In this document: piece after piece, positions 43,104-45,316 of the stretch
How the letters are laid out: every line of letters starts with the position of its first letter
Numbering within the stretch: the first letter of the stretch is position 1
Assembly (NCBI RefSeq): GCF_001049495.1
Contig: NZ_CDWI01000011.1
Location: 124,001 to 188,000, forward strand
Direction of reading: 5' to 3'
Length of the DNA stretch: 64,000 nt
DNA from: Microbacterium sp. 3J1
GTDB lineage: Bacteria; Actinomycetota; Actinomycetes; Actinomycetales; Microbacteriaceae
Position numbers and translations under genes: made by a program
Notes under the pieces: generated by a model
The model's input: only the letters and a program-made list of their open reading frames with translations
The model's database searches: none
Told to the model about the DNA's origin: nothing

Positions 43104-43133
43104 TTGTGCTCAGCTTGTTCCCAGGAATAGGCT
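43104..43133 (+). promoter_or_regulatory. Promoter of the leader ORF and ABC exporter operon
   Basis: TTGTGC (43104-43109), an 18-bp spacer, then TAGGCT (43128-43133). The expected transcript start near 43140 gives a 5' leader of about 210 nt before the first exporter gene. That is long for this window, where many genes are leaderless, and the leader contains a short ORF and a hairpin. Confidence 0.6.
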
Positions 43134-43186
43134 GATGGGCTGTCGCGCCGACCGGACGACACGGCCGAGCCCCTGAGGAGGACATC

Positions 43187-43252
43187 ATGACCACGATCGC
43201 AGATGTGCAGATCGCCGCTCACGGCTCGACCCCGGTGCGCTCGCTCCTCTAG
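43187..43252 (+). CDS. 21-aa putative leader peptide upstream of the ABC exporter
   Basis: A short ORF, MTTIADVQIAAHGSTPVRSL plus a final Leu, ending in TAG. It has one of the strongest ribosome binding sites in the window (GAGGAGGAC, 6 nt before the ATG) and lies in the long leader of the exporter operon, followed 19 bp later by a strong hairpin. By analogy with BmrB, the leader peptide that controls the heterodimeric exporter BmrCD in Bacillus subtilis, it may sense ribosome stalling by drugs. There is no sequence similarity to BmrB that I can see; the analogy is positional. It could alternatively be a non-functional short ORF. Confidence 0.5.
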   Translation: MTTIADVQIAAHGSTPVRSLL

Positions 43253-43271
43253 CGCTCTCTCACCCCCGCAT

Positions 43272-43307
43272 CGGATGCCGGACTCCGAGAGTCCGTTCCC
43301 GCATCCG
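43272..43307 (+). promoter_or_regulatory. Attenuator-like hairpin before the ABC exporter
   Basis: The outer stem CGGATGC/GCATCCG (43272-43278 with 43301-43307) encloses the inner stem CGGACTC/GAGTCCG (43279-43285 with 43289-43295), with a CGA loop and a 5-nt bulge TTCCC on the 3' side. It is 14 bp in total, then CTTCCGTT. It sits between the leader ORF and the exporter start, where a conditional terminator would be expected. There is no long U run. Confidence 0.5.
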
Positions 43308-43351
43308 CTTCCGTTAGCAATCGCTTCCCATACGAAACTCGTCTGAGAGTC

Positions 43352-45316
43352 ATGTCTTCCTCGTCTTCATCGCAGAACGCCACGCCGTCGTCCTCCCTTT
43401 CCACTCCCGCCGCACTGTGGCGCCTCAAGCCCTTCGTTCGTCCCGTCATCTGGCGCCTCGCCGGTGGTGCCGCGAGCGCGCTCGTGGCGGCCATCATCGC
43501 TCTGATGATCCCGATCGTGCTCGAGCAGATCATCCGCGGCCCGGTGCAGGCCGGCGCGATCGACGCGATCGTCTGGGGAGCCCTCGCCGTCTTCGGCCTC
43601 GGGCTCGGCGAGGCGCTGATGGTGTGGCTACGCCGCCAGTTCGTGCTCAACCCCTCGACCGAGGTCGAGTACAAGATGCGCACCGAGCTCTACTCGCGCC
43701 TGCAGACGCTGCCGGTGTCGTTCCACGACCGCTGGCAGTCCGGACAGCTGCTGAGCCGGATGATGCAGGACATCGGTCTGATCCGCCGCTGGCTCGCGTT
43801 CGGCCTCGTGCTCCTGGTCGTCAACGTCCTCACCATCGTCATCGGCGCCGTGCTGCTCTTCCGCTGGCACTGGCTGCTCGGGGTGATCTTCATCGTGACC
43901 GCCATCCCGCTGTGGATCCGGGGCTACCTGTTCGAGAAGCGATATGGCGCGCTCACCCGACGCAGCCAGGACCAGGCCGGAGACCTCGCCACGAGCGTCG
44001 AGGAGAGCGTCCACGGCATCCGCGTGCTCAAGGCCTTCGGGCGCGGCAAGCACGCGCTCAGCCGCTTCAGCCGTCAGGCCGAGACCCTGCGGGAGACCGA
44101 GATGAGCAAGGCCGGCGCGATCGCGTCGATCTGGTTCTGGCTCGACCTCATGCCGCAGATCGCGTTCGGACTGAGCCTGATGTCGGGGATCTGGCTGATC
44201 TCGCAGGGCGCGATCGAGCTGCCCGAGCTGTTCGCCTTCTTCGCGATGGCCACGGTGCTGCGCTGGCCGATCGAGTCGATCGGCTTCCTGTTCTCGTTCA
44301 TGCTCGACGCGCGCACCGCGACCGACCGCGTGTTCGACATCTTCTCGGAGACGAACTCGATCACCGACCCCGAGAACCCGGTGCACATCGCCGAGCCCCG
44401 CGGCCTGCTCGCGTTCGAGGACGCGCACTTCCGCTACCAGGACGCGGGCGCGAGCGAGCGCGACCTGCTCGACGGCATCGACCTCGTGCTGCGTCCGGGC
44501 GAGACCATGGCGCTCGTCGGTCTGACCGGCAGCGGGAAGACCACGCTGACGACTCTGCCGACGCGCCTGTACGACGTCACCGGAGGCCGGGTCACGCTCG
44601 ACGGCGTCGACGTCCGGGACCTCCCGCTCGCCGAGCTGCGCCAGCACATCGCGATGGCGTTCGAGGACGCGACGCTGTTCTCCGCGACCGTCCGGGAGAA
44701 CGTGCTGCTGGGACGCGCCGACCTCGACGTGCACAGCGACGAGGCGGAGCGCGTGCTGCGCGAAGCGCTCGACGTCGCCCAGGCGGCGTTCGTCGACTCC
44801 CTTCCCGAGGGCGTCGAGACCGTCATCGGCGAGGAGGGGCTGAGCCTCTCCGGCGGTCAGCGTCAGCGTCTTGCCCTGGCTCGGGCCGTGGCCGCCAAGC
44901 CGAAGGTGCTCGTGCTCGACGACCCGCTGTCGGCGCTCGACGTCGACACGGAGGCGCTGGTCGAGGAGGCCCTGCGGCATGTGCTGGCCGACACGACGGC
45001 CATGATCGTCGCGCATCGTCCATCGACGGTCGCCCTCGCCGATCGAGTGGCTCTGCTCGAATCGGGGCGCGTCACCGCCGTGGGCACGCACAGCGAGCTG
45101 CTGAGGACGAGCCGTCACTACCGCCACGTCATCTCGAGCCTCGAGGCGGAGGAGGCGGCACGGACGGGAGCGATCCCGATCATCGCCGACGCCGACGCCG
45201 ACGCCGGCGCCGACGCCGATCCCGACGAGCTCGAGATCGAGACGACGGTGCGCGAGGGGATCCGTGAGGACGCCGCCACCGAAGACATGACCAGCGAGAA
45301 GGAGGTGCGGCGATGA
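43352..45316 (+). CDS. ABC exporter half, degenerate-site subunit
   Basis: A 654-aa fused membrane/ATPase half-transporter. Six membrane helices occupy about 25-330 and the nucleotide-binding domain about 360-600. Walker A is GLTGSGKTTL, the signature is LSLSGGQRQRLALARA, and Walker B is VLVLDDPLSALD, where the catalytic Glu is replaced by Asp524. That substitution marks the degenerate site of heterodimeric exporters such as BmrC/TM287. The C-terminus has an acidic Asp/Ala repeat (DADADAGADADPDE) of no known role. It overlaps the next gene by 4 nt (ATGA). A substrate cannot be read from sequence; drug or lipid export is usual. Confidence 0.88.
   Translation: MSSSSSSQNATPSSSLSTPAALWRLKPFVRPVIWRLAGGAASALVAAIIALMIPIVLEQIIRGPVQAGAIDAIVWGALAVFGLGLGEALMVWLRRQFVLNPSTEVEYKMRTELYSRLQTLPVSFHDRWQSGQLLSRMMQDIGLIRRWLAFGLVLLVVNVLTIVIGAVLLFRWHWLLGVIFIVTAIPLWIRGYLFEKRYGALTRRSQDQAGDLATSVEESVHGIRVLKAFGRGKHALSRFSRQAETLRETEMSKAGAIASIWFWLDLMPQIAFGLSLMSGIWLISQGAIELPELFAFFAMATVLRWPIESIGFLFSFMLDARTATDRVFDIFSETNSITDPENPVHIAEPRGLLAFEDAHFRYQDAGASERDLLDGIDLVLRPGETMALVGLTGSGKTTLTTLPTRLYDVTGGRVTLDGVDVRDLPLAELRQHIAMAFEDATLFSATVRENVLLGRADLDVHSDEAERVLREALDVAQAAFVDSLPEGVETVIGEEGLSLSGGQRQRLALARAVAAKPKVLVLDDPLSALDVDTEALVEEALRHVLADTTAMIVAHRPSTVALADRVALLESGRVTAVGTHSELLRTSRHYRHVISSLEAEEAARTGAIPIIADADADAGADADPDELEIETTVREGIREDAATEDMTSEKEVRR

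Follow-up and report, generated by a model that had tools for sequence, protein, structure and literature searches.

The window analysed here is a 64,000-nt stretch of the genome of Microbacterium sp. 3J1 (assembly GCF_001049495.1, contig NZ_CDWI01000011.1, positions 124,001 to 188,000). In it, the leader of an operon for a heterodimeric ATP-binding cassette (ABC) exporter carries a short upstream open reading frame (uORF), which is followed by a C-rich spacer resembling a Rho utilization (rut) site. The uORF and spacer form a cassette conserved in Microbacteriaceae. We propose, at close to an even chance, that this cassette gates premature termination of exporter transcription, and we predict that Rho-type termination is involved. 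The proposal is made because a short ORF with a strong Shine-Dalgarno (SD) sequence, a long C-rich bare stretch and a weakly initiated gene are what such a gate needs, and all are conserved. The parts of the cassette are observed, and from them we infer the roles of Rho, of a stalled ribosome and of drugs.

Conservation of the uORF in Microbacteriaceae

The uORF of the window (43187..43252, + strand) has 21 codons, encodes the peptide MTTIADVQIAAHGSTPVRSLL up to its stop codon, and is preceded by the strong SD sequence GAGGAGGAC (43175..43183, +). Predicted pairing with the anti-SD is -11.5 kcal/mol for the uORF versus -2.7 kcal/mol for the exporter start, where the ribosome-binding site GTCTGAGAG (43341..43349, +) is weak. 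At an E value of 1e-160 or better, the first exporter subunit is matched in 118 of 119 genomes of the genus, the remaining genome (G102) reaching only 1.9e-73; at 1e-200, it is matched in 156 of 199 genomes and 68 of 85 genera of the family. Upstream regions were taken from named relatives (80 loci among the matches listed) and from further genus and family genomes, and identical leaders were counted once. A uORF was scored where the predicted SD pairing was -9 kcal/mol or better and the frame had 10-60 codons. The family sample comprised one or two loci per genus, giving 65 loci from 63 Microbacteriaceae genera. One locus (L169) had no usable start, two leaders (L049 and L110) contain runs of N, and one (L052) was too short.

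A strong-SD uORF is present in 104 of the 111 distinct leaders from Microbacterium and its close kin, 102 of them by the rule and two (L036 and L048) having a uORF with a weaker SD; five of the 111 come from records titled otherwise (L048, L059, L061, L063, and L080). The seven leaders without a uORF are all short. An earlier sequence-only reading of the window had made its proposal of a ribosome-sensing attenuator depend on conservation of the short ORF in close relatives, and these counts bear that out. In the family sample, the uORF is found at 42 of 65 loci; the rule matches 43, and L174 was removed because its match was taken as the end of the upstream gene, although it is still counted where n is 43 (hairpin z score and C/G skew). 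Because the rule fires in only 45 of 1300 dinucleotide-shuffled leaders and matches only one of 16 exporter homologues outside the family but within the order (L253, whose frame of 13 codons starts with GTG), the uORF layout is no local accident. What is kept of the uORF is its presence, its SD, its position and its rough length. The predicted SD of the exporter is weaker than -7 kcal/mol at 38 of the 42 uORF-bearing loci. The 23 family loci without a uORF comprise 16 that retain a sequence element over the transcription start, described below, six with neither, and L174. Thirteen family leaders have the start element, no uORF and a measurable length, and 11 of these are short (31-114 nt). The uORF and the spacer are usually lost together, as one cassette.

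A C-rich spacer accompanies the uORF

Downstream of the uORF stop codon, all 43 family leaders contain more C than G, with a mean skew of 0.283 (0.286 without L174, n = 42); in 163 control 5' regions from the genome of the window, the mean is 0.028 (P = 2.6e-19). The same excess is found in all 102 leaders examined of the Microbacterium set. The skew is lower in the 13 leaders that have the start element and lack the uORF (0.157, P = 1.4e-4), and so it is in the 16 homologues outside the family (0.071, P = 1.9e-5). Resemblance to rut sites was scored over 78 nt by spaced C residues and by the best C/G ratio, following the idea on which RhoTermPredict is reportedly based. Of the 42 leaders, 35 reached a best C/G of at least 2; among the controls, 27 of 228 5' regions did so, as did 12 of 224 coding stretches. 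The best stretch in the window (43255..43332, +) starts right after the uORF stop and contains 33 C and 15 G per 78 nt. Rho is encoded in the window's genome. The conserved partner of the uORF is the C-rich, rut-like spacer and not a hairpin.

A compound hairpin restricted to part of the genus

The leader of the window also contains a compound hairpin (43272..43307, +) of two 7-bp helices (14 pairs) with a one-sided internal loop, which begins 19 nt past the uORF and has a pyrimidine-rich tail. The sequence-only reading had described the 21-codon ORF with its strong ribosome-binding site GAGGAGGAC, the 14-pair hairpin 19 nt behind it and the want of a long U run; all of this can be read directly, and a program scan of the window's leader found no terminator-like site. 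The same reading had asked whether the hairpin covaries, which in the window's clade it does. Alignment A1 holds 35 distinct sequences out of 44 hairpin rows, nine having been left out before the covariation count: one with a long insert (L024) and eight divergent rows (L033, L102, L043, L036, L034, L061, L101, and L100), which do not show the window's compound hairpin. In A1, 94.3% of cells are paired, against 27-49% in slid controls, and 20 cells are doubly changed versus 5.6 in shuffles (0/500). The compound hairpin is real in the window's clade. Its predicted energy modestly beats that of shuffled sequences (-20.1 versus -13.9 kcal/mol, z = -1.6), and the fold of the whole leader is unexceptional (z = -0.57). 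Family-wide, no hairpin signal was detected between the uORF stop and the exporter in 43 leaders, with a mean z of -0.17 and five leaders below -1.5 (15 mononucleotide shuffles each).

For comparison, a crude ORF prediction over 400 kb of the window's genome gave 232 genes, used here as the control gene set. Hairpins of at least eight pairs follow 30 of these 232 genes, versus four found upstream and five inside. The arms CGGATGC/GCATCCG recur at three of the 30 gene-end hairpins. Because the tails of the gene-end hairpins average 21% T, the missing U run alone is no bar to a terminator role here.

Composition of the uORF peptides

The uORF peptides have no evident sequence in common across genera, and no common stall motif was noticed in the uORFs. 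The sequence-only reading had looked to codon-level conservation of the 21-codon ORF, and this was not borne out: in 36 distinct ungapped 17-codon stretches from the window's clade, the ratio of nonsynonymous to synonymous differences (pN/pS) is 1.21 in the uORF frame versus 1.03 and 0.60 in the remaining two, in a test weakened by the third-position G+C pressure of the genome. The composition of the peptides is distinctive. Family-wide, the uORFs are rich in Thr (18% versus 8% in gene starts) and poor in Asp and Glu (3.8% versus 10.3%), and Ser is not enriched. Thr occupies position 2 in 25 of 42 uORFs versus 42 of 232 genes, and position 4 in 25 of 42 versus 21 of 232; one of the 42 peptides is wrong (L151, in which the start was moved to an inner ATG and the frame misread). 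The uORF of the window has only two Thr among residues 2-13. The Thr enrichment is clear, yet it is only a lead, and the termination gate is not built on it, because the window's uORF has little Thr and the genera are not independent.

Promoter and start element

The promoter of the window (43104..43133, +) has a -35 sequence TTGTGC (43104-43109), an 18-nt spacer and a -10 sequence TAGGCT (43128-43133). The sigma-70 scan did not list it; the -35/-10 pair is nonetheless conserved in the family, where the -35 logo reads TTGC (T 86%, T 92%, G 92%, C 75%) with identical spacing at 51 loci. The positions given in the sequence-only reading for the promoter TTGTGC-18-TAGGCT, the uORF, the hairpin and the exporter were right at every coordinate checked.

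An element lies across the predicted transcription start (43128..43142, +), reading TAGGCTGATGGGCTG in the window, one base off the family consensus TANNCTGNARGGCTG. The looser pattern TANNNTNNNNGGCT[GC] occurs at 51 of 65 family loci, in 109 of 111 leaders of Microbacterium and its kin and at none of 16 loci from other families. At the 51 loci, TANNCTGNARGGCTG is almost invariant, part of the motif being required by the search pattern, and the element is kept where the uORF has been lost. A search of 60 genomes gave 44 matches to the consensus, 29 of them at the exporter (coordinates matched by eye); the other 15, a few of which lie in genomes in which the exporter was not located, compare with 18 control matches. 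The start element TANNCTGNARGGCTG thus appears mostly specific to the exporter operon, and it is more shared than a promoter should be. The extended start-region pattern was also considered as a repeated element and rejected, since with up to three mismatches it gave 338 and 342 matches in the genome versus 378 and 374 in the control. The pattern TANNNTGNRRGGCTG, from which the window copy differs by one base, has one genome match, on the minus strand of L274 at 1473-1515, shortly before a gene recognized by eye as encoding an ABC-F ATPase. A regulon shared through the start element was considered on this account and rejected: the match was treated as chance, given the 15 non-exporter matches against 18 in the control. 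At two loci, L112 and L116, the start element is the right arm of a perfect inverted repeat of 11-12 bp (ACAGCCCTCCAG/CTGGAGGGCTGT and CAGCCCTTCAG/CTGAAGGGCTG); in L123, from the same genus as L116, the left arm is missing.

The exporter genes and their surroundings

The two exporter genes encode subunit 1, P0001 (43352..45316, +), with a degenerate Walker B (Asp524) and the signature LSGGQ, and subunit 2, P0002 (45313..47127, +), with an intact Glu526 and the signature VSAGQ. The end of P0001 and the start of P0002 overlap by four bases. Sequence matches of P0001 and P0002 include, among many ABC exporters, heterodimeric ones of solved structure such as TM288 and the BmrCD subunits YheI and YheH. 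The Asp524/Glu526 pair and these hits identify a heterodimeric exporter of the BmrCD/TM287-288 type, as the sequence-only reading had recognized, and drug transport is predicted. At gathering score, no Rfam family matches the window. The source genome, of 3.40 Mb, is that of a Microbacterium-type actinobacterium. Directly upstream, at 41039-43059, lie an Ada/AlkA-like gene and an Ogt-like methyltransferase gene (named by eye from translations). At some other loci, the end of the upstream neighbour resembles the purH-like product of the window.

Discussion

Under the proposed termination gate, the C-rich stretch would lie bare once a ribosome had completed the uORF and departed; Rho could then load on it, so that transcription would stop before or early in the exporter gene. 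In part of Microbacterium, the covarying hairpin may delay or terminate the polymerase there as well. If a drug or uncharged tRNA slowed or stalled the ribosome on the uORF, that ribosome would shield the stretch, and transcription and translation would continue; in the window's clade, a stalled ribosome may also free the exporter start from pairing with the uORF SD. That the leader responds to drugs is something we infer. The first candidates for the signal, given as a lead only, are drugs of the phenicol or oxazolidinone type or a shortage of charged tRNA-Thr, because the uORFs are Thr-rich and chloramphenicol stalling is described, in the relevant passages on toiL, as strongest after Ala, Ser or Thr codons (PMC12121999). 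A bolder version is unlikely to be right as a whole: that the exporter is wired to the ribosome by a uORF rich in Thr and Ala and poor in acidic residues together with the rut-like spacer, a sensor in which no peptide and no hairpin is conserved, and that pauses at Thr and Ala codons, caused by chloramphenicol- or oxazolidinone-like drugs or by a shortage of threonyl-tRNA, would hold off Rho, an arrangement that would replace the WhiB7 route.

Several points weigh against the termination gate. The first 150 nt of the exporter are likewise C-rich (0.207), and the C-richness of the spacer could stem from another cause. A ribosome that stalls early in the uORF bares more RNA, not less; shielding therefore needs a stall near the end of the uORF or an effect on translation of the exporter, for which the predicted pairing of the uORF SD with the exporter start would give a structural footing in the window's clade. 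The amino acids of the uORF show no visible purifying selection. Six of the 23 uORF-less family loci have neither uORF nor start element, and two long leaders (L187 and L149) lack a uORF by the rule, that of L187 falling just below the threshold. One leader, L046, has retained the hairpin (GGATGC/GCATCC) and lost the uORF. The genera in the family counts are also non-independent samples. The L046 leader, which recurs in L111, offers a natural comparison for a hairpin without a uORF.

A translational switch like that of toiL, confined to the window's clade, would work as follows: the uORF SD would pair with the region of the exporter start codon, a ribosome held at the start or first codons of the uORF would free that start, and Rho would act only on the untranslated transcript. 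In the lowest-energy fold, the exporter start AUGUCUUCCUC (43352..43362, +) is indeed paired with the uORF SD region (43175-43185) through 11 contiguous complementary bases, including one G-U pair, and complementarity to GAGGAGGAC is retained in 50 of 52 main-clade leaders, in which codons 5-8 vary. A modelled ribosome makes the exporter start more accessible: over 51 sequences, its mean unpaired probability goes up from 0.35 to 0.43 when the ribosome sits at the uORF start, and to 0.49 when it sits at codon 4. Across 42 leaders of the family, however, a placed ribosome did not clearly outdo random masks (P from 0.05 to 0.40 at five ribosome positions), and the Ser-rich start of the exporter would alone yield a CU-rich sequence. 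Since an SD and start codons have little room to covary, common descent may account for the conservation; the 52 leaders contain 29 distinct starts. We regard this switch as a doubtful account of the leader. More doubtful still is an attenuator of the BmrB type, in which 43272-43307 would be an intrinsic terminator that a stalled ribosome blocks through an alternative antiterminator fold. The sequence-only reading had suggested a switch parallel to BmrB. Its short uORF, its hairpin, covariant at least in the clade, and its exporter type all stood. The hairpin resembles the gene-end hairpins of this genome, and the layout resembles that of bmrB-bmrCD in the passages describing it (PMC4191407). 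What did not stand are codon conservation, a family-wide intrinsic terminator and an alternative fold controlled by the ribosome. The U run is missing, and no refolding was seen: in 51 sequences, the probability of the outer stem stays at 0.64-0.67 whether the ribosome is absent or placed at any of six positions, and therefore no antiterminator is predicted. According to the same passages, the B. subtilis terminator lies inside bmrB, whereas the hairpin here follows the uORF (PMC4191407). The leader would thus act in the manner of uORF attenuators, yet two features that define the BmrB type, a U-run terminator and an antiterminator, were not found. Finally, the uORF may sense nothing and serve merely as a ribosome-loading aid, an mRNA stabilizer or a source of a small peptide. 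Such a role would suit its strong SD, the failure to notice a common stall motif and the want of peptide conservation across genera. A coupling function, though, would have little chance where 63 to 309 nt of bare, C-rich spacer precede a usually weakly initiated exporter, and a small-protein function is unlikely given peptides that share no evident sequence across genera. We consider this explanation improbable.

Among described systems, the BmrB leader of bmrCD in Bacillus subtilis is alike in having a small ORF between the promoter and a heterodimeric multidrug ABC exporter; the passages concerned place a terminator within the small ORF and describe three alternative stem-loops (PMC4191407). 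In the Microbacteriaceae leader, by contrast, a hairpin follows the uORF in part of the family only, and the shared feature is the rut-like spacer. The toiL uORF of topAI in Escherichia coli offers a parallel as a leader uORF with a Rut in its 5' region, where Rho ends transcripts of the target that go untranslated and at least five drug classes act; its uORF region pairs with the target start, a pairing predicted here in the window's clade only (PMC12121999). The differences are that the pairing here is not family-wide, that rut and Rho dependence are predicted, and that toiL, as the sections concerned describe it, has no Ala, Ser or Thr codons, whereas the Microbacteriaceae uORFs are rich in Thr and Ala (PMC12121999). 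In the Mbox leader of pe20 in Mycobacterium tuberculosis, a pyrimidine-rich stretch has been suggested as a rut site masked by uORF translation; intrinsic terminators are said to be rare in that species, and the leader is joined to an Mbox riboswitch, unlike the window with its lack of an Rfam match (PMC12810186). The whiB7 uORF of Actinobacteria is likewise described as lying upstream of an intrinsic-resistance locus (parts of PMC12121999 and PMC13236596). There the uORF precedes a regulator gene, and here it stands directly on an ABC exporter. The window's genome encodes two WhiB proteins (G000:C11:520392-520583 and 550304-550510), neither of which has the AT-hook tail that we take to mark WhiB7, and by this measure the WhiB7 route is not evident in that genome. 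A search of open-licence papers found none on this Microbacteriaceae exporter leader.

Layout and composition of the leader are kept as the peptide sequence drifts, and searches for leader-peptide homology would miss such cases. If the termination gate is correct, a core exporter in much of an actinobacterial family would be governed by a ribosome sensor in the leader of that exporter, and termination would probably be carried out by Rho and not by a hairpin. Such a gate would bring a case of drug efflux to the known control by uORFs and Rho, and would suggest a route to inducible efflux in a genome without an evident WhiB7.

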